From: Halococcus saccharolyticus DSM 5350
GTDB lineage: Archaea; Halobacteriota; Halobacteria; Halobacteriales; Halococcaceae
Direction: 5' to 3'
Assembly: GCF_000336915.1 (NCBI RefSeq)
Contig: NZ_AOMD01000018.1
Span: 202,425 to 241,653 of the forward strand
DNA: 39,229 nucleotides
The position numbers and the translations under genes were made by a program. Positions 17,705-26,793 of the stretch are shown here, one piece after another. Under the pieces are notes generated by a model that saw only the letters and a list, made by a program, of their open reading frames with translations, was not told the DNA's origin and ran no database searches. Numbering within the stretch: the stretch's first letter is position 1; every line of letters starts with the position of its first letter.

Positions 17705-17715
17705 GACGCCAATAA
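17705..17715. repeat. attL core
   Basis: Left copy of GACGCCAATAA. On the minus strand it reads TTATTGGCGTC and encodes the V-I-G-V part of the pilin processing region. The bases directly outside differ from those of the right copy, so the exact repeat is 11 bp. Confidence 0.85.
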
Positions 17716-17736
17716 AGCCTGAAAAGTAAAGTAACG

Positions 17737-17744
17737 ACTATAAC
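17737..17744 (+). promoter_or_regulatory. TATA box of the regulator-integrase operon
   Basis: ACTATAAC is centred about 26 bp before the ATG at 17765, fitting a leaderless transcript. It lies only 22 bp inside attL, so in the excised circle it would face the pilin gene across the att site. Confidence 0.6.
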
Positions 17745-17764
17745 CTTGGCGACTTTGTATCTGA

Positions 17765-18331
17765 ATGGGTGACCGGAAAATGGCTTCCGACACAGGTCAA
17801 GTGAACATATCGCTTGACACGGACGTGAAAGAAGAATGGCAACAGTACGTCGACGAACATCCCGATTATCGCTACGTGTCCCACCTTGTCCGGGCGGCAG
17901 TCGGGAAAGAAATCCGAGGACAGTACGGTGGTGGCGGGGGGGCTTCGGGCGACGTGGCCGAGCGACTATCCGACATCGAATCCCTGCTTTTGGACATCCA
18001 GAACGGCGTCGACGACGTTCACGATCGGATGGATGCCGTGGAATCCCAGTTGGAAGGCCCATCGACCGATGTCACCGATCTCGCAGGGGATGTGTTCGAA
18101 TGCCTGCCGTCAGAGGGAATGGCTGGTCGGACCACCCAAGATGTACTGTCCGGCGAAGAGCACGCCGTTGACGAAGGCACAGTTCTGACCGGACGAATCA
18201 GCGATATCGCTGATCACTTGGACACCGATCCGATCCGTGTGCGACAGGCACTACAACAATTGAAAGAAGACACGCCGCTTGTCGATTCACAAAACATCGG
18301 TGGCGATGAAAGCTGGTTCCGAGTGAATTGA
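17765..18331 (+). CDS. RHH-like/coiled-coil/winged-helix putative regulator
   Basis: 188 residues. The first 50 (V-N-I-S-L-D-T-D-V-K-E-E-W, then Y-V-S-H-L-V-R-A-A-V) resemble a ribbon-helix-helix DNA-binding unit. A Gly-rich hinge and a coiled coil (about 65-95) follow, and residues 100-188 look like a winged helix (I-S-D-I-A-D-H-L-D-T-D-P-I-R-V-R-Q-A-L). The integrase starts two bases after its stop, so the pair is one operon. By position it may control integration or excision, like small DNA-binding proteins next to other archaeal integrases; this is inference. The ATG at 17765 fits the TATA spacing, with an alternative ATG at 17780. Confidence 0.75.
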   Translation: MGDRKMASDTGQVNISLDTDVKEEWQQYVDEHPDYRYVSHLVRAAVGKEIRGQYGGGGGASGDVAERLSDIESLLLDIQNGVDDVHDRMDAVESQLEGPSTDVTDLAGDVFECLPSEGMAGRTTQDVLSGEEHAVDEGTVLTGRISDIADHLDTDPIRVRQALQQLKEDTPLVDSQNIGGDESWFRVN

Positions 18332-18332
18332 T

Positions 18333-19319
18333 ATGGCAGCCACCACCACCCGGACCCCCATCGGGAACGAGCACATCGATGAGTTTCTTGACGACGTTCA
18401 CGGGCTGAAATCCGATGGGACCTACCAGACCCGGCATTCCGATCTGAAGAACTTCTACGGTTGGATGCAGGACAACGGCCACGACGACGTTACGGAGCTG
18501 TCGGCACGCGACATCCGGAAGTATCTGATTTGGAACGACCGGCAGGGATACGCACCTGCCACCATCCAGTCGCGCTATATGTCGGTCACGATGCTATTCA
18601 AAGAACTATCTGGTATCTACGACGTGATCGACGAAGACGACAACCCGATGGAAAATCTGGATTACATGTCGGTTTCGGGGCTGATGGAAGGCACAAAAAA
18701 GACCGACGACGACCCGGACAACGTTGTCTTCGTCACCCCCGAGGAGGTCAACATGATGTGCGAGGATGCACCAAATCCCCAACATCGAAACCAGCTAATC
18801 CTGCGCATTCTGTTTCAGACCGGTGTTCGTGTTCAAGAATGTCGAGACATGAAGCTTGAACACGTCGACCGGGACGAGCGGTCCATCCAGATTCACAGCC
18901 AGAAGACCGACGACTGGCGCACCGTGTGGTGGCAGCCCGGCAAGGTAGACACCCTGATGGCTATGTGGGTCGACCATCTTCGGGACACCCATTCCCCGGC
19001 TGCTGAGTCAGACCACCTGTTTCTAACAAACCGGTCCGAGAAATTGGGGAAGTCCCGAATCCAAGAGATGGTGCGCGACACCGCGAAGCGAGCAGGGATC
19101 CAGTCCGTACTATACACCGACCCGGCCGGAAAAGACCACCATCGGATTACGCCCCATGCGTTCCGACACGGCCACTGTGTGAACGCGGTGCGCAACGACA
19201 TTGATATTGCCTTCGTTCGGGAGCACGTCGGGCATGAGTCCATCGAGACAACCAAACGCTATCTTCAGTTCAAAGAGGAGGAAATCCGGGACGCCTACCA
19301 CCGGTTCGACACCGCGTAG
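18333..19319 (+). CDS. Tyrosine recombinase / integrase
   Basis: 328 residues. An N-terminal SAM-like core-binding domain covers about 10-120, the catalytic domain 130-328. All expected catalytic residues are present: Arg166 in G-V-R-V-Q-E, Lys191 in S-Q-K-T, His275-x-x-Arg278 in P-H-A-F-R-H, His301 in H-V-G-H and the nucleophile Tyr310 in T-K-R-Y-L. It should cut and rejoin DNA at the GACGCCAATAA core. The gene follows the regulator by one base of spacing and lies 0.6 kb from attL, as usual for integrases of archaeal elements. It appears intact. Confidence 0.95.
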   Translation: MAATTTRTPIGNEHIDEFLDDVHGLKSDGTYQTRHSDLKNFYGWMQDNGHDDVTELSARDIRKYLIWNDRQGYAPATIQSRYMSVTMLFKELSGIYDVIDEDDNPMENLDYMSVSGLMEGTKKTDDDPDNVVFVTPEEVNMMCEDAPNPQHRNQLILRILFQTGVRVQECRDMKLEHVDRDERSIQIHSQKTDDWRTVWWQPGKVDTLMAMWVDHLRDTHSPAAESDHLFLTNRSEKLGKSRIQEMVRDTAKRAGIQSVLYTDPAGKDHHRITPHAFRHGHCVNAVRNDIDIAFVREHVGHESIETTKRYLQFKEEEIRDAYHRFDTA

Positions 19320-19744
19320 CCCCACCTTCCGGCTATTTTCAGCCCAATATCGGTCGCTGTGACCGTCGCACGAACCGACGAAACGCCTGCTATTCGTCAC
19401 CGTCAGAACGCCGTAGAACGCACTGTGCGCGTCGTGGCGGCATAGGGGTGCGACAGTCAACACAACCTATGTCGTTATCTGTCGATAATCGCAAGACGGT
19501 AGTACGGTCAGTATTAAAATTGTCAAAGTGCCGGAACATTCAAGCGTATCGTCGCCTTACCTGACGGTAGAAAGTTAGGAACTGATGTTCGGATGGGTGA
19601 GATCATCCGAACGGCCACGATTCGAATCCCATCGTGGTGACGATGACAGGGTGGAGACCTGTGCCATTTGCTTCGGTTGCGGGGCACTTAGGCCTATTGT
19701 CCTCGTCAACACGGTGGTGAGACGACAAGCTGCATATCGAGATC
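19320..19744. other. Non-coding region between integrase and helicase-like gene
   Basis: No convincing gene in this 425-bp gap. It contains a copy of CGTCAGAACGCCGT (19401-19414) that recurs at 26130-26143, an A+T-rich spot around 19510, and a cluster of inverted repeats from 19587 to about 19690. An 82-residue frame across 19585-19833 has a C-A-I-C-F-G-C-G cluster but overlaps the hairpins and the next gene, so I did not call it. The region could hold a replication origin, a promoter or a structured RNA. Confidence 0.4.
19587..19637. promoter_or_regulatory. Two adjacent hairpins
   Basis: GTTCGGATG (19587-19595) pairs perfectly with CATCCGAAC (19604-19612) across an 8-base loop. Two bases later CCACGA (19615-19620) pairs with TCGTGG (19632-19637) across an 11-base loop containing TTCGAATC. 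The second loop resembles a tRNA T loop, but the stem and the absence of other arms rule out a tRNA gene. No T-tract follows, so a simple terminator is unlikely. Confidence 0.55.
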
Positions 19745-21583
19745 TTGGCTACTACCCCCACTACGGACGAATCGACGAATCGAACGACGAACGAACGACC
19801 ACCGGAAGTCCTAACCCAGCAGTGGGTCCGTGACCGGACGAGAGCGGTCATCACCGACGCGCTTCGGGCCAACGGAGAGACCTTAGTCGAAGCCCCACCT
19901 GCCGCCGGCAAGACGACTGGACTGTTCGCTGCGGTTGAGGACACAGGTGAACCGATCACCTACCTAACCCAACGGGAGGACCTGTACGACCAAGCCGGCA
20001 AGCTGGCGCGCGACCACGGACTGAAACCGAAGGTCCTGCCGAGCCCACACCGGACGTGTCCGACATTTGAAGGCGACCACGGCGACGAGTGGCGCAATCG
20101 TGTGACGACTGTCTACGGTCCTAACGTCGGCGGTGCTGCCATCCACAAAGTGATGGACTTGCCATGCAGCGATGAGGGCACTTGCCCCTACCAGCTGGCG
20201 TGGGACTTCGAGCCGGCGAACTACGACGTTCTGGTGGGTCATTACGTCCATGCTAACGTTCCGTCCGCCGTCGAGAATCGGACGATCGTCATCGATGAGT
20301 TCGCCGAGGAAGCCGCCGTAACCACCTTCCACGATCCCGAACCCGTGGTTTCGGCATTCGTATCACGTCGGCGCGGGCTTCCGTTCGACGACTGGACTGA
20401 TTTCGTCGAACATCGTCACGAACGAAGACCCGAAGCCGTCCGCTGGTTCGTTCGCAACTACCGCGACAAGAACCCCGACTCATGGGATGTCATCGATGAC
20501 GATGGTGATGTGCATGGACTGGCCGGCGAGCTTGTGCTGGGACTGTTGTTCGCCGAGGATTTGGGTAACGGCTTCCGAACAACGGAGAAGACGATCCCCA
20601 AACCGACACCGGATGGGTGGCAACGAATGGCGCTGCGAGACACGTCCGTCCGGCGACGAATGTCCCCAAAAGTCGCATGGAACACCGAGAAGAACGCCGT
20701 CCATCTGCTATCCGTCCCCAACTTCGACGACGCGAACGGAGTGGCCGCGCTTGATGGCACACCCACAAAACGCATGTGGGATACGGCCTTTGGCGTTTCC
20801 TTCGACCACGAGCGAGTCGTTCCGCCGTCGAGGATGAACGACTATCTAACCGACGCGCTGGATATCAAAGTCCATCAGTACGGTGCGCACGATCCGGATA
20901 AGGCCGGCACGCGACCGTATTCGTCGGGCAATCACCTGTATGCCGAGACTGACGAGAAGCTACTTCATGGGATAGGGATGCACTTCGATGCCGATCCCGA
21001 TGTCATCACGACGAGAGCAGCAATTCGTGAGTACGACGAAGACGACCGAGTTCTTCATCACGCCGACGAATATCGAAACTTCGCGTCGGTGAAGTCATCG
21101 AACGCTTTTCGTGAATCGACTGTCGGAGCTGTCCTTGGTTCCCCACACCCCGGTGACGAGACATTCAAGCGGTGGGGCGCTTTCATGGGATCCGCAATCG
21201 AGGGGTCCGGCAAGGGAGTAGATCGTTCCTACCGAGCCGTCGGCGACGAGATATACCACCACTACGTCCACAATCAGGTGCTACAGTCGATTCTGCGGTT
21301 TGGACGCGACGGACAGGAGGCGCATGTCCTTGTCACGTCGATGTGTACGCCGTCGTGGGTCGAACCTGAGCCGTTGAAGATGATGACGTTCAGCGGAAGT
21401 AGCAGTAGGGCTGTCGTTGATTGCCTTCGTGACAGCGACGGAATGTCGCAGAGTGAAATCGTTGACGAGACCGGACTATCCCAGCAGGCAGCATCGAAGG
21501 CGTTGAACGGACTGGATGAGAATGGGTTCGTCGCTGTTGAAGACAAACCCGGCCCATACAGCAGTCAATACGTGTGGAATTAG
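19745..21583 (+). CDS. Helicase-like NTPase with C-terminal winged helix
   Basis: 612 residues. Walker A is A-P-P-A-A-G-K-T-T (50-58), a DE-box I-V-I-D-E-F lies near 181-186, and Q-S-I-L-R-F-G-R near 514-521 resembles SF2 motif VI. The last 65 residues form a MarR-like winged helix (S-Q-S-E-I-V-D-E-T-G-L-S-Q-Q-A-A). It is the largest protein of the element and the best candidate for its replication or copy control. The start is uncertain: the frame opens at 19721 and its only ordinary start is TTG at 19745, without a clear TATA box or SD. Cellular partners are unknown. Confidence 0.8.
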   Translation: MATTPTTDESTNRTTNERPPEVLTQQWVRDRTRAVITDALRANGETLVEAPPAAGKTTGLFAAVEDTGEPITYLTQREDLYDQAGKLARDHGLKPKVLPSPHRTCPTFEGDHGDEWRNRVTTVYGPNVGGAAIHKVMDLPCSDEGTCPYQLAWDFEPANYDVLVGHYVHANVPSAVENRTIVIDEFAEEAAVTTFHDPEPVVSAFVSRRRGLPFDDWTDFVEHRHERRPEAVRWFVRNYRDKNPDSWDVIDDDGDVHGLAGELVLGLLFAEDLGNGFRTTEKTIPKPTPDGWQRMALRDTSVRRRMSPKVAWNTEKNAVHLLSVPNFDDANGVAALDGTPTKRMWDTAFGVSFDHERVVPPSRMNDYLTDALDIKVHQYGAHDPDKAGTRPYSSGNHLYAETDEKLLHGIGMHFDADPDVITTRAAIREYDEDDRVLHHADEYRNFASVKSSNAFRESTVGAVLGSPHPGDETFKRWGAFMGSAIEGSGKGVDRSYRAVGDEIYHHYVHNQVLQSILRFGRDGQEAHVLVTSMCTPSWVEPEPLKMMTFSGSSSRAVVDCLRDSDGMSQSEIVDETGLSQQAASKALNGLDENGFVAVEDKPGPYSSQYVWN

Positions 21584-21600
21584 GAGTCCATGTGAATCAT

Positions 21601-21656
21601 TGTGAAGCTACCACGATCCCATACTAAGCTTAGTATGGGACTATTGTACCTTCACA
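21601..21656. promoter_or_regulatory. Nested dyad site 1
   Basis: A 24-bp perfect palindrome (21617-21640, half-site TCCCATACTAAG, HindIII-type AAGCTT centre) is surrounded by a second pair of arms, TGTGAAG (21601-21607) and CTTCACA (21650-21656). Both pairs share one centre (21628.5), with spacers of exactly nine bases. With no loop it is a poor terminator and a good binding site for a dimeric or tetrameric protein. Confidence 0.85.
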
Positions 21657-21720
21657 GTCGTTATCATGGTAGTCGTTAAGGACGACGGCAATCTACGTTG
21701 AACTTGGGAGGGTGTAGCAT

Positions 21721-21766
21721 GAAGTTCGCAATCCCATACTAAGCTTATTATGGAGTCGTGAACTTC
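21721..21766. promoter_or_regulatory. Nested dyad site 2
   Basis: A second copy of the half-site TCCCATACTAAG (21732-21743) with a less perfect right half, centred at 21743.5. Outer arms GAAGTTC (21721-21727) and GAACTTC (21760-21766) are placed symmetrically about the same centre. The centres of sites 1 and 2 are 115 bp apart, close to eleven turns of B-DNA. Confidence 0.8.
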
Positions 21767-21833
21767 GTGCCAAGGACTGTCGTGGATGGCACTGACCCGA
21801 ACAACTAACGGTCCCATCGTTCACCTGTCCGCT

Positions 21834-22088
21834 ATGGCGCAGAAACAGACGACCGACATGGATGACTGGGAAGAAATCGGCGAACAGGCACAGAAGGCAC
21901 GCGAGGAGCTGTTCAAACTTCACGAGTTGTTGGGTGGTGGCGACGCCGTGCCAAAGACCGTATGGCGGGACGCTTTCGAAAAGGCCGATGGTGGTCTGTC
22001 TGCGCTGAAATCCGACTTGGAGGATCGTATGGTCGAGGAGCATCCCGATGAGTTCGACACCGACGTGTTCTACGGCGGCGATTACTGA
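21834..22088 (+). CDS. Small acidic helical protein of the element
   Basis: 84 residues from the ATG at 21834; an in-frame ATG at 21786 would add 16 residues that lack the acidic bias. The protein is predicted mainly helical (E-E-I-G-E-Q-A-Q-K-A-R-E-E-L-F-K-L) with an acidic C-terminus ending F-Y-G-G-D-Y. It starts about 70 bp after the second dyad site and could be controlled by it. I do not recognise the family. Confidence 0.6.
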   Translation: MAQKQTTDMDDWEEIGEQAQKAREELFKLHELLGGGDAVPKTVWRDAFEKADGGLSALKSDLEDRMVEEHPDEFDTDVFYGGDY

Positions 22089-22377
22089 CTGAACCAGTCG
22101 CTTCGGTTCGAGCAAGAGACGTTCATTCGGCAATTCGGCCAGTGATTGCGCCGTTCAACTACACTTTTCGCGTGGTATATCGGCTGTCGATGTTCTGTTG
22201 ACAACACAACGGTGTCGATACGGACCAACGCCAGTGGGTGTTTGTGGTCGTTCTGAGCGGCATGGTATTGTCGCAGGAAGGGAAGGATAGGTTGCTAATC
22301 GGGCGTGACACACAGACACGATATGTGGGTGAGTGACAAACACTAAGTGCCGCCCATCGGTGATTTCGTTCAAGCAG

Positions 22378-23286
22378 ATGGCAACGACGAGAGAATCCGG
22401 GCAGGTCTTGTCGCAGCTACAGTCGATGGACAGCTACGACTTTGAGCATCTGGTGGCCGATCTATGGGAACAGCAGGGATGGGATACTGAGGTGTCACAG
22501 GCGAGTTCAGACGCCGGTATCGATGTGATTGCGACGAAGGAAAACCCGTATCCACAGAAGAAGCTGATACAAGCGAAACGCTACGGTCCCAATACGACCG
22601 TTGGCAGCCCTGACATGCAGCAATATTATTCGTTGAAAGAGCAGGAAGACAACGTCGATTCCGTCGTCATTGTAACATCCAACGAGTTCACCTACGACGC
22701 CGAGGAACGCGCCCAAGAACTGAACGTTAAAACCGTCAACGGCGACGAAATGGTCGAACTGATTGACCGACTCAATAGCTACGATCTGCTGGACCAATAC
22801 GATACATCCGATGTGATATCTGGTACTGCATCCCCCACTGTCAACGAGGCTCAATCCGAAGATAAATCAACAGATGAGGGGTTCTGGGCCGGCATTTCCA
22901 ATGATTCGTACTATCGTTTCATCCAACTTGGAACAGCAGTATGGACTTTTGGTTTCATACTGGGAATAGCAGGATATTCTGGTAGTGGCGGGACGCTGGA
23001 CGGTATATTCGGGCTTGTATCCATCATCACGTGGGTCGTGATGCCACCCGGCCTATACTACGAGGCGCAACGAGTAGCGGGAGAAACTGACTGGACACCA
23101 TACAAGACGCTTTATGCCGCTACTGCCGTCATACCGTTTCTAAACGCCCTTATTGGCGGAATCTACTTGTATCGTCGAAAGAATGCCTATGAACGGGCAC
23201 GGCCCCAAGGAATCGAGGAATCCGGTAGCTTCAGTGTCGAATCGGCAGACGATTCGCGCGAATCCATCACGGAACGATCCGAGTAG
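22378..23286 (+). CDS. Mrr-type restriction endonuclease-like protein with membrane helices
   Basis: 302 residues. The N-terminal 110 residues match the Mrr-cat PD-(D/E)XK fold: Y-D-F-E-H-L-V-A-D-L-W, then D-A-G-I-D-V (Asp49) and I-Q-A-K-R-Y (Gln65, Lys67). Three membrane helices follow between about 180 and 270, with a charged tail. Mrr-like nucleases are known in modification-dependent restriction and other defence. A membrane-tethered form would cut DNA near the envelope, which is inference. The ATG at 22378 is chosen over an in-frame GTG at 22333 because an ACTAAG element lies about 27 bp upstream. Codons are less G+C-biased than in the chromosome. Confidence 0.8.
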   Translation: MATTRESGQVLSQLQSMDSYDFEHLVADLWEQQGWDTEVSQASSDAGIDVIATKENPYPQKKLIQAKRYGPNTTVGSPDMQQYYSLKEQEDNVDSVVIVTSNEFTYDAEERAQELNVKTVNGDEMVELIDRLNSYDLLDQYDTSDVISGTASPTVNEAQSEDKSTDEGFWAGISNDSYYRFIQLGTAVWTFGFILGIAGYSGSGGTLDGIFGLVSIITWVVMPPGLYYEAQRVAGETDWTPYKTLYAATAVIPFLNALIGGIYLYRRKNAYERARPQGIEESGSFSVESADDSRESITERSE

Positions 23287-23569
23287 GAAGGGGCGCAGCC
23301 AGTTTATTATTGATGGTTGCCGTTTGTGTTTTGCAGCACAGTTCGGTTGTAACGTCCACCCGCGGCTTTTCACCGCCAATTGAATACTGTGAAGAAATCG
23401 TATCGTCGGACATCACCGTATTGGTCGATACAGACCATCTGTGTTATAGAATGTGTCGATACGGGACGTTAGGGGGCCTCAACGACGGTGTTTTGTGGCT
23501 TCGTGACATAGGTCTGGCAATGACAATTTCGCATCCGCAGCGACTGGGTGATTCACTGATTATCAAATC

Positions 23570-23863
23570 ATGACTGACGAAGACGAAGCCACGATTGCGG
23601 AGCTTGAACAGCGCCATGAACGATTACAGCGGAAAGCGAAGCGAAAACCGAGCTGGCAGCGTGCCGCCGACAACGCCGCCGAGGAACTAATCGAAGCGAA
23701 GTGCGACCGAGTCGAGGAATTGGAAGTACAGTCTGACGACATGAGTCCGGCCGGCGCGGTGTTGGCACGTAGTCTTGGTGCGACCGAAGCCGGTCAGACG
23801 GCCGAACTACGCGACGAGATTGACCGACATCGAAGCGACATCGCGGAACTGGAGGAACAATGA
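23570..23863 (+). CDS. Small coiled-coil protein of the element
   Basis: 97 residues, almost wholly helical and charged. Two coiled segments (A-E-L-E-Q-R-H-E-R-L-Q-R and A-E-L-R-D-E-I-D-R-H) flank a middle region with M-S-P-A-G-A-V-L-A-R-S-L-G. The stop overlaps the start of the next gene by ATGA, so the two are co-translated. No family was recognised. It could be a scaffold or adaptor for the next product; nothing in the sequence proves this. Confidence 0.65.
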   Translation: MTDEDEATIAELEQRHERLQRKAKRKPSWQRAADNAAEELIEAKCDRVEELEVQSDDMSPAGAVLARSLGATEAGQTAELRDEIDRHRSDIAELEEQ

Positions 23864-24243
23864 GTTCTAAAGCTGACGGAGTGAACAGGGAGATTCGTTC
23901 CGCCGTCCGTGATTCAGATGCCGGACTACGAATGAACGAGTTGAATCTGGCCATCACCGTATCCGACGGAGATGATGTTTTCGCCGAAGTGTCGATAGGC
24001 CGTGACCGCCAGCGCCAGAAGATCGTCCATGTCATGACGGCTGCCGTCCGTGGTGTGCTACAGGCTACCGAGAGTGCATCCCATGACAGCGACGGCGACT
24101 TCACATCGCCACCGACGGACGGCGAGGCCACAGTCGTCGTTGTGGCCGACCGTATCTACCGCGTATCCGTCGAGAACGACTGGCAGGACCTGCCCGACCC
24201 AAAGCTATCGACAAGGGTTACATCGACCATCAGCGCCGTCTGA
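23860..24243 (+). CDS. Unknown soluble protein of the element
   Basis: 127 residues with alternating strands (L-N-L-A-I-T-V-S-D-G-D-D, A-T-V-V-V-V-A-D-R-I-Y-R-V-S-V) and one helix, V-M-T-A-A-V-R-G-V-L. It is coupled to the preceding coiled-coil gene by ATGA. No membrane segment, signal or catalytic motif is visible and I do not recognise it. The next gene runs toward it on the minus strand. Confidence 0.65.
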   Translation: MSSKADGVNREIRSAVRDSDAGLRMNELNLAITVSDGDDVFAEVSIGRDRQRQKIVHVMTAAVRGVLQATESASHDSDGDFTSPPTDGEATVVVVADRIYRVSVENDWQDLPDPKLSTRVTSTISAV

Positions 24244-24332
24244 CGGATACAACTTCTTTCAGGGCAGCGACAGGGAGCGCGCGGGCTATCTAAAGCCGTG
24301 TGTGGACAGCCACGGTGGTCGGGCTGCTACGA

Positions 24333-25310
24333 CTAATCCCGTACTATGTTCCCCGGTTCGGGTTCGCCGCTATCTTGACTGGTTGTATCGTCGGTGTCTG
24401 TCGAACCGTCATCTGAGGAGTCGCTATCTTCTGTTGATTCTGTAGATTCGGTTCCTTCTCGCTGAGATGGGGGCGATTCGTTTAGTAGTTCTTCGGTATT
24501 GGAAACGCGCTTCCACAGGAACCCCAGTGTCCACAGGAATCCGACTATCCATACTACGGACACCGCTACAGGTTCGATCCATGCGAACGGGGATGAATAG
24601 GTCCACCCGAGTTCATGCAGAAGACGGACGAAAAGAGGAAACATGACTGACAGAGCAATTGGAACGGCAGCCGATTTGATACCATCTTGAAGCTGCTGGG
24701 GGTCTAACGATTTGTCTTCTTCTACCAACAGTTCCCATTCGTCTTCTAATTCGTCAATATCACCTTGAATTTCTGAAACAACCGAGTCATGGCGGTCATA
24801 TTTTTCGCGGTCGTATATGTCCCAGAGTGCTTCGACGATATATTTGAAGTCATTATCAAGAAATACCGCTGAATCCATTGTTGGGCCTCTTGATCGCAAC
24901 TTTTCAAGGATTTCATCCCAACGTTCGCGGATTGTTTCGGCATGGTGCTGAATTAGGTCATCCGCAGTCAGTCCTCGATGCGTGATTAGCCCCTGCATCG
25001 CATCGTCAACTGATATTTCAGTTGCAGGTGGGTCCCAATCACTACCAACATCGTATTTTATGAACGAGTCAACATCGTCTTCTGCGCTTTCACGCCTCCA
25101 ACGAACCTCGGTTTGCTCAACTTGTTCAGTGCGAAAATCCTTACGGGCAAGTAGGACCTCTTGTTCGGCTTCAACAGAGTTGGCTCGTTGCCGTATGCGC
25201 GACCGTTGAGTTTTGAGATCGGAATACCGCGTAACAAGGTAAGCAGTAAGGATACCAACGAAAATGCTTGCTGTTGAAGCAAGAACGCCATAGAATTGGA
25301 GCAGCGCCAT
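24333..25310 (-). CDS. Membrane protein with long cytoplasmic helical domain
   Basis: 325 residues. One membrane helix (about residues 7-25, F-Y-G-V-L-A-S-T-A-S-I-F-V-G-I-L) is followed by roughly 180 charged, mostly helical residues, then two more helices (about 212-275) and a Ser/Thr/Asp/Glu-rich tail. The layout recalls membrane sensors or anchoring proteins, but I recognise no family. The ATG at 25310 begins right at the first helix. The gene is convergent with the 23860 gene. Its A+T-richer codons agree with foreign origin. Confidence 0.75.
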   Translation of the reverse strand: MALLQFYGVLASTASIFVGILTAYLVTRYSDLKTQRSRIRQRANSVEAEQEVLLARKDFRTEQVEQTEVRWRRESAEDDVDSFIKYDVGSDWDPPATEISVDDAMQGLITHRGLTADDLIQHHAETIRERWDEILEKLRSRGPTMDSAVFLDNDFKYIVEALWDIYDREKYDRHDSVVSEIQGDIDELEDEWELLVEEDKSLDPQQLQDGIKSAAVPIALSVMFPLFVRLLHELGWTYSSPFAWIEPVAVSVVWIVGFLWTLGFLWKRVSNTEELLNESPPSQREGTESTESTEDSDSSDDGSTDTDDTTSQDSGEPEPGNIVRD

Positions 25311-25477
25311 ATTGGTGAATTACATCTTCGGTGGAATGAAACGCTGATATCATTTTTGGTGTCCGGTGGACAGTCACAGGGCGAGGGCAAACACTGCGTA
25401 TTCTCCTACCCGCAGGATTCGAGCGGTGGTTCCGGATCGACAGGGCTGATACTGCCTCTGAGGTGGTTGTCGGGGCG

Positions 25478-25801
25478 TTATGGAACGGTTGTTACCGCCG
25501 ACCAGCCAAAGACGAATGCAAAAACAACGACCCAAGCCATGACCAGCCAGACACGATGAAGGATGCTTCGATAATCTCGATACTTGCCAGTTAGCAGACT
25601 CAGTCCGAACGAACCGATCAATACCGCCCCTCCAATGAGGCCGACGAACAGTAGAACTGTCCCACCACGTCTGCGAACAAGAGGAATAAACGAAAAGTAC
25701 GCTGATACCAATTTTGGGATGACCCACAGTGCGAACCCCAAGCAAACAATCCCGACCACGCCCCTAAGTACGGAATTGGGTTTCACTGCTTGAGGCGACA
25801 A
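25478..25801 (-). CDS. Small membrane protein
   Basis: 107 residues with three hydrophobic helices: about residues 13-37, 45-69 and 82-104. A basic patch (L-V-R-R-R-G-G) lies between the first two. The only upstream start is TTG at 25801; a GTG at codon 6 is an alternative. It lies 167 bp upstream of the larger membrane protein on the same strand, so the two may be one transcript. Function unknown. Confidence 0.65.
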   Translation of the reverse strand: MSPQAVKPNSVLRGVVGIVCLGFALWVIPKLVSAYFSFIPLVRRRGGTVLLFVGLIGGAVLIGSFGLSLLTGKYRDYRSILHRVWLVMAWVVVFAFVFGWSAVTTVP

Positions 25802-26269
25802 ACCGATGGTAGTTAGTTACTGTCATTCCGCTGAATCGCACCAAATGGGCTGGCAAATGGTGTACGCATTTTCGTGGGTCTCTTTTCCAGTAGTACCGCT
25901 ATATGTCAGATTAAAGGGGCACTGGCGCACGCCGGAACCAGCCTGTCGCGCTGCGCATCCCTGTTCCGCGCCATCGAACCCACCCTTTGCGTGTCGAGAG
26001 ACGGGTTCGCCGGGCGTCGTGTGTCGCGTGAACAGCGGATACGTGCTTCAATCCCTGTCGTCATCAGAACGAGTACAGTCGCCGTGTGTGCGCCGTCAGA
26101 ACGACGCAAAAGGAGTTCGTTTCACCGGGCGTCAGAACGCCGTCAGTGGCGCGATGTTGGCGTGTGTGCCATATTTACTGGCCCAACGCTTATCCATCGT
26201 CGCCGAAAAATGGGTGTTGTATCGGACCGCTCAGTCCACCCAAGAGGGTGAACTCGGGAAGCCGGATTA
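25802..26269. other. Non-coding region before the element pilin
   Basis: 468 bp without a credible gene. Two overlapping open frames on the plus strand have unusual Cys-, Ser- and Arg-rich translations and no acidic bias. The region holds CGTCAGAACGACG (26094-26106) and CGTCAGAACGCCGT (26130-26143), related to the copy at 19401-19414, and two copies of CCGGGCGTC. It lies downstream of the pilin and may end its transcript. Confidence 0.45.
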
Positions 26270-26683
26270 TTAACTGCCGCTACTGCCACCGGCATCGAAT
26301 GATCCGAGCACCGCGGAGTTTCCGTTGCCGTCGTCCCATATCACTTGAACGGTGGTATCACTACTTACCGATACGTCCGAAGTGCTGCCAGCAGTGACCT
26401 CTCCACTTGTATCAGTTCCACCCCAATCCGATCTGCCAGAGTCGCCTACTTTGGTGTATAGATTGCCTGAATCTATCGCATCACCACTTTCCATGACCAC
26501 TTGGGTATTCGCTGCGTCGTAACTGAAACTGGCCTGTGGTGCGCTGTTCTGATTCCCGAAAACGCCGGTGGCGAACGCGCCGACCACGGCGGCGAGGATG
26601 ACCACGACCGCAATCATCAACACAACCCCGATAACGGGGCTAACTGCGCGGTCATCACCGGACAGCCTATCGAACAGGTTCAT
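26270..26683 (-). CDS. Complete type IV pilin carried by the element
   Basis: 137 residues. A short charged leader ends in D-D-R-A-V-S-P-V-I-G-V, the class III signal and processing region seen in haloarchaeal pilins, followed by V-L-M-I-A-V-V-V-I-L-A-A-V-V-G-A-F. Cleavage by a PilD/PibD-like peptidase before the hydrophobic helix is expected. The C-terminal domain is Ser-, Gly- and Asp-rich and differs strongly from the disrupted host pilin, while the helix is nearly identical. The ATG at 26683 overlaps the stop of the host-element fusion ORF by ATGA, so after integration it is probably expressed from the host pilin promoter. It should form or join adhesive pili. Confidence 0.92.
   Translation of the reverse strand: MNLFDRLSGDDRAVSPVIGVVLMIAVVVILAAVVGAFATGVFGNQNSAPQASFSYDAANTQVVMESGDAIDSGNLYTKVGDSGRSDWGGTDTSGEVTAGSTSDVSVSSDTTVQVIWDDGNGNSAVLGSFDAGGSSGS
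26568..26611 (-). repeat. 44-bp direct repeat in the two pilin genes, copy 2
   Basis: Identical to 17649-17692 in the disrupted host pilin, same orientation, 8,919 bp apart. Codes for the conserved pilin helix. Confidence 0.9.
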
Positions 26684-26793
26684 CGTTTGCGTCCCGTATT
26701 GTAGTCACTGGTAGTCCGAACGTTTTTCATGACGCCAATAACTGGGCTGACTGCACGTGAATCCGATCGAAGTTCGTTGATTCGTTCTCTCAT
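26680..26793 (-). pseudogene. 5' part of host pilin fused in frame to an element leader peptide
   Basis: 37 codons. The first 21 are host sequence: a charged leader and R-A-V-S-P-V-I-G-V. At the att core the frame passes without a shift into element DNA and continues as MKNVRTTSDYNTGRKR, then TGA. There is no hydrophobic helix, so the peptide cannot be a pilin. Its stop overlaps the ATG of the element pilin (ATGA, 26680-26683). The host start at 26793 gives the 13-residue leader typical of this family; a GTG at 26865 would add 24 residues. It probably acts only as a translated leader that delivers ribosomes to the element pilin. Confidence 0.9.
26731..26741. repeat. attR core
   Basis: Right copy of GACGCCAATAA. 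Element DNA lies at lower coordinates (ending TTTTTCAT) and host pilin DNA at higher coordinates (CTGGGCTGACTG). Confidence 0.85.

Follow-up and report, generated by a model that had tools for sequence, protein, structure and literature searches.

What is the function of two large palindromic sites that lie directly behind a helicase gene in a haloarchaeal chromosome? The window, that is, the whole stretch of 39,229 nucleotides from Halococcus saccharolyticus DSM 5350 analysed here, harbours two nested dyads, each with an inner palindrome and an outer pair of arms. According to the original prediction they may be either an operator of the preceding helicase-wHTH gene or a replication or partition site. 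The following features, given in window coordinates, are needed for the argument.

17705..26741, no strand: integrated element of 9,026 bp (about 9.03 kb) plus one att copy, delimited by comparison with the empty site of a congener
17705-17715 and 26731-26741: 11-bp direct repeats GACGCCAATAA flanking the element
17765..18331, plus strand: 188-aa protein whose N-terminus resembles a ribbon-helix-helix by eye, without a match to a curated family
18333..19319, plus strand: tyrosine recombinase (integrase) of the element
19745..21583, plus strand: proposed Rep, a 612-aa XPD/DinG-type SF2 helicase with a MarR-type wHTH (TTG start codon uncertain)
21601..21656, no strand: site 1, a bipartite (nested) dyad, the proposed Rep binding site and replication origin core (dyad scan, simulation and family profile)
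21617..21640, no strand: inner core of site 1, a perfect 24 bp with TCCCATACTAAG to the left and CTTAGTATGGGA to the right of an AT-rich centre, the proposed unwinding point
21721..21766, no strand: site 2, a second, imperfect copy with its own outer arms GAAGTTC/GAACTTC
22333..23286, plus strand: Mrr-type nuclease-domain protein
26270-26683, minus strand: complete pilin gene borne by the element

Two nested dyads within an integrated element

The uninterrupted chromosome of the congener (L172) matches the window up to 17713 and then again from 26731, which gives the element a length of 9,026 bp and a repeat of 11 bp at each end. In this congener the chromosomal type IV pilin gene is intact, whereas in the window it is cut after SPVIGV at the 11-bp core. 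Insertion of the element thus breaks a pilin gene of the host, yet supplies another, whole one. An origin of the latter by recombination at a 44-bp H-domain repeat was considered and rejected, since the empty site reveals the 11-bp core and a whole pilin gene carried by the element itself; within 1.5 kb of 19 related integrases from other genomes, no pilin gene (0/19) was found. The element also carries small ORFs. The Mrr-type nuclease gene, which accompanies the helicase gene both here and on an 8.9-kb Halorientalis plasmid (L047:1092-1628, Mrr_cat), is possibly a recurrent partner.

Site 1 is centred at 21628/21629, with TGTGAAGcTACcacgaTCCCATACTAAG on the left and CTTAGTATGGGActattGTAcCTTCACA on the right, and its outer arms TGTGAAGcTAC/GTAcCTTCACA share their centre with the perfect inner palindrome of 24 bp. 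Site 2 is centred at 21743/21744 (GAAGTTCgcaaTCCCATACTAAG and CTTATTATGGagtcgtGAACTTC), and the left half of its core is the same as in site 1 while two positions of the right half deviate from the half-site. The inner palindromes originally described for both sites are thus perfect in site 1 and imperfect in site 2. In the 3.45-Mb genome there are three occurrences of the half-site TCCCATACTAAG, all of them at these two sites, compared with zero of a reversed control pattern. With a dyad score of 18, site 1 exceeded the best dyad in each of 150/150 Markov-simulated 39-kb windows (mean 11.9, maximum 17), and sites 1 and 2 were the two top dyads of the real window, the next best scoring 11. Nested dyads with shared centres and outer arms, as first described, are accordingly a real feature of this DNA. 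Both lie between genes here: the helicase ORF ends at 21583, site 1 starts 17 bp past its stop codon, and no convincing ORF runs across the sites. The G+C content around them is lowered to 0.52-0.60, against 0.61-0.70 in the flanks.

The spacing of 115 bp between the two centres is exact, and the arithmetic behind a proposed looping of DNA between proteins bound on the same face, eleven turns apart, is sound (115 / 10.5 = 10.95 turns). However, a second core copy was seen in none of the relatives examined, and the candidates found at other positions lack the shared core. The 115-bp spacing and the looping are therefore features of one element at most, and helical phasing was dropped from the argument. 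The possession of two site copies is unique to the window's element among the relatives examined, and site 2 may be a lineage-specific extra copy that increases affinity or takes part in copy number control. With two copies here and a single one in all relatives checked, the arrangement differs from iteron-type direct repeats of an initiator site.

The helicase-wHTH family and its associated site

The wHTH of the 612-aa protein was assigned to residues 554-602 and includes a Pfam match to MarR_2 at residues 562-602 (E 7e-7). A Walker A motif, a DEF box and the motifs DGTPT and LQAxxRFGR are visible in the family alignment, in which C105/H134/C141/C147 are invariant. XPD and DinG helicases were the best fold matches (Foldseek E 1e-10; VIA Z 13-15, residues 23-541) of an AlphaFold2 model that is itself only of moderate confidence (mean pLDDT 64.8), and, judging from this model, the helicase is of the XPD/DinG-type SF2 and not SF3. 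Domain scans of the 612-aa protein, made with models other than Rep-Arvir, recognised the helicase and the wHTH only. An N-terminal primase domain, absent in this form, is present in long relatives, and many homologues include it and measure 1000-1300 aa or more (PHROG DNA primase E 6e-25; dnaG/DNAG_N).

Of the 392 genomes of the order, 115 (about 29%) contain a homologue of the protein. Homologues were also found on 14 plasmids, and an integrase is encoded by several of these relatives as well as by the window's element. On replicons of about 6.7-10.8 kb that are circular or appear to be so (L132, 6.7 kb with a 141-bp terminal overlap; L127, 7.9 kb; L047, 8.9 kb; L048, 10.8 kb), the helicase gene is the sole recognisable replication gene among the ORFs scanned. 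No Cdc6-like match was found among the element proteins scanned, and hence no adjacent orc1/cdc6 of the kind that belongs to an ORB origin. A protein scan of viral and genome contigs with the single window protein returned no relative, nor did tblastn in phages. A search of plasmids at the DNA level with the site region gave no match, and the site is thus recognisable by its anatomy only. The genome of H. saccharolyticus also harbours a second helicase-wHTH gene (L012 / L119, contig C30:32452-34188), 42% identical to the first and followed 46 bp past its stop by a nested dyad of its own; the outer arms of this dyad, TTGTGAaGTTG/CAACgTCACAA, are close to the window's TTGTGAAG.

A bipartite dyad of shared anatomy lies beside the gene in about 65 homologues. 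Strong dyads were in excess near the 3' end of homologous genes relative to control regions (Mann-Whitney p = 1e-11), and this excess was individually supported at p <= 0.05 in 36 of 98 loci, where about 5 were expected. The family profile was drawn from 67 curated sites, partly chosen by eye and including one wrong row (L005, entered at -134) that should not change the profile noticeably. Pairing in these sites was 0.60-0.90 at positions 5-9 from the centre and 0.58-0.93 at positions 15-24, against a flat 0.41 for identically treated random anchors, and the centre (positions 1-4) and the spacer (10-13) paired near this background. A/T makes up about 87% of positions 4-7, and hardly any G is present at positions 1-5 when these are read in the orientation of the arm.

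Measured from the stop codon, the centre of 57 of the 67 sites falls within one of two narrow intervals, -120 to -172 or +11 to +67, the anchors having been chosen by position. In long forms the centre is mostly found 130-134 bp before the stop, within a poorly conserved tail, and in short forms 11-67 bp after it, with one subgroup near +190. The original statement that coding explains none of the dyads needs some qualification: they are intergenic in the window, but in many relatives the same site lies within the coding tail of the gene. There, in most long forms, GC3 is about 0.5 within the site and about 0.8 over the rest of the ORF, as expected if the DNA sequence outranks codon choice. 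The site was the best bipartite dyad of the whole locus of about 4.7 kb in 54 of 66 cases, by a score tuned on the same set. Among eight held-out loci from haloarchaeal genomes and viral-type metagenome contigs it was the best of the scanned stretch in six and tied best in two, 77-141 bp before the stop and near the predicted place. Conservation in related elements, on which the original prediction had been staked, was hence found for the site type.

In two loci the bipartite dyad has been relocated, to codons of the primase-helicase linker in L005 (position 1026-1074 in gene orientation) and to a position upstream of the gene in L096 (position 885). No dyad of this kind was found near the gene in a subfamily of 670-713 aa and one ORF of 440 aa (L043, L051, L053, L054, L056, L063, L090, L091). 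The subfamily has a different C-terminus with 'ADLYRW'-like tails and may use another site or specificity domain.

Arms, recognition helix and the function of the site

The outer arms vary between elements yet remain symmetric, and their similarity tracks that of the wHTH recognition helix even with the helicase and the remainder of the wHTH held constant, the correlation being modest (partial Mantel r = 0.19, p = 0.001). No significant effect on the outer arms was seen for that remainder (r = 0.06, p = 0.09). The helicases of L024 and L025 are 74% identical, but their recognition helices are only 43% identical and their arms are unrelated (AGTTCCGCACT versus ACTTTACGAAC), while L025 and L047, with helicases also 74% identical, have recognition helices of 86% identity and near-identical arms. 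In these three elements the recognition helix and the outer arms look as if they had been swapped as a matched block, as by recombination.

The link between a replication site and the helicase-wHTH gene, one of the options first put forward, finds good support, since the site type travels with the gene across haloarchaea and the arms covary with the recognition helix. We consider the nested dyads to be probably (roughly 75%) the replication origin of the 9-kb integrative plasmid-like element, recognised by the wHTH of the neighbouring Rep helicase. Most related plasmids and integrated elements of haloarchaea have this kind of site next to their helicase gene, and there it is most likely where the helicase binds by means of its DNA-binding tail and initiates replication of the element. 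GC skew, examined in 13 small relatives, gave no information and does not point to the site.

We infer direct binding, head-to-head loading, unwinding and origin firing in the following form. The 612-aa protein would be the replication initiator of the element, and copies of it, as a symmetric complex, would use the C-terminal winged helix to bind the outer arms, at positions of about 15-24 counted from the centre. Two XPD/DinG-type helicase domains would thereby come to lie head to head, covering both the conserved inner core (positions 5-9) and the AT-rich centre, poor in G, and would open the latter. Priming may be performed by the fused primase domain in long forms, and by a host primase in short forms such as that of the window.

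An unlikely alternative is that the helicase-wHTH binds the site for the sake of control, in autoregulation, copy number or incompatibility, and that the site is not the origin itself. The covariation of arms and helix speaks for binding specificity and not for which function follows from it, MarR-type wHTH domains are commonly regulatory, and site 2 could be a control copy. This reading, and with it the operator originally envisaged, is weakened by the position of the site, which is found not at a promoter but at the gene's 3' end or within the coding tail, by the following ORF, which is not conserved (a conserved downstream gene was sought in the relatives and none was found), and by the protein being a helicase, often fused to a primase. 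That the dyad acts in the rep mRNA, as a hairpin or a transcription terminator at its 3' end, is very unlikely, although it lies just past the stop codon in short forms and compensatory changes would be expected here too. Mismatches of the G.U and A.C kinds are about equally common in the arms (47 v 52 inner; 39 v 47 outer), which reveals no preference for an RNA strand; in long forms the dyad lies about 130 nt before the stop, in L005 and L096 it has been relocated, and no poly-T tract follows site 1. No Rfam family was matched, and a single sub-threshold microRNA match was discarded, as it was found on both strands, as expected of a palindrome.

Very little probability is likewise given to a recombination site for resolution or crossover by the tyrosine recombinase of the element or a resolvase. 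The symmetric arms about an AT-rich centre would suit such a site, as would the integrase in the element and several relatives, but integration takes place elsewhere, at GACGCCAATAA in the pilin gene, and the site follows the helicase gene with arms that track the helicase's wHTH. Centromeres can be nested or repeated dyads and the sites do occupy an intergenic gap; a role in partition, as originally suggested, has nevertheless become extremely improbable, as a scan of ORFs of the element recognised no ParA/ParB-like gene, the site covaries with the helicase, and it is usually present in a single copy. Short palindromes are common in large windows, yet chance is a negligible explanation in the light of the simulations and of the recurrence of the dyad at set positions in tens of diverged loci.

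We give even odds to the proposal, based on the comparison of the loci, that a bipartite dyad with element-specific arms read by the wHTH of an XPD/DinG-type helicase, around a conserved AT-rich core, constitutes a widespread and undescribed class of archaeal origin in which helix and arms evolve, or are swapped, as matched partners. If true, an XPD-type helicase would load head to head as replication initiator, which is not among the described replicons found in the literature searched. XPD/DinG-type helicases are known from repair, and the present observations suggest that one can act as a replication initiator. This would provide a concrete candidate origin and initiator for a family of plasmids and integrated elements that is present in about 29% of the sampled haloarchaeal genomes and whose proteins currently carry the annotation 'hypothetical' or 'MarR family regulator'. 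A minimal replicon that could be constructed straight away follows as a prediction from the origin reading, and if DNA arms can be read from recognition helices, this would be of use for compatibility groups and vectors.

Comparison with known replication systems

The general scheme of a rep gene followed by its origin is already known, and pRN1 and SNJ2 give the origin reading a strong precedent. No example combining an XPD/DinG-type helicase and a wHTH with a bipartite dyad whose outer arms covary was encountered in the literature searched; this literature left subscription papers mostly outside, and the result is not proof of novelty. The nearest earlier account of proteins of this kind may be that of the elements encoding arCOG07809 (Mpal_2033-like) proteins, which combine a primase, a helicase assigned by the authors to superfamily I, an HTH and a Zn finger; some homologues lack the primase, and the genes reside in small integrated archaeal elements with integrases and nucleases (PMC4158269). 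Compared by description, the primase/helicase/HTH make-up, the primase-less homologues and the small integrated elements are all shared with the present family, whereas the helicase there is assigned to superfamily I and no origin or dyad was described.

In the betapleolipoviruses, exemplified by SNJ2, an essential hairpin and a variable inverted repeat, the proposed Rep binding site, lie 3' of a Rep with a MarR-wHTH, and this Rep-Arvir is a Rep_trans-like nicking enzyme that acts in rolling circle replication (PMC13107129). These are also haloarchaeal elements, with a MarR-like wHTH in Rep and a conserved element plus a variable repeat downstream of rep. In contrast to SNJ2, whose hairpin lies side by side with a separate, upstream inverted repeat, the variable arms here surround the conserved core about a single centre, and the protein is a helicase.

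The Sulfolobus plasmid pRN1 encodes ORF904, a prim-pol/SF3 helicase/wHTH protein, and requires a stem-loop origin of 100 nt located 54 bp 3' of the gene, which still works when displaced experimentally (PMC4234260). The present family differs from pRN1 in its haloarchaeal hosts, in its helicase, which is XPD/DinG-type SF2 and not SF3, and in the window's form being without a primase domain. The site differs too, with a bipartite dyad of about 56 bp and a conserved inner core in place of a 21-nt stem and a 58-nt loop. The two systems nevertheless have in common a single replication protein with a primase (here in long forms only), a helicase and a C-terminal wHTH, and a symmetric DNA element directly 3' of the gene, which in the present family is both present and conserved. 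In both, the site can sit elsewhere, by experiment in pRN1 and naturally in L005 and L096, and its symmetry is kept while its sequence varies between plasmids.
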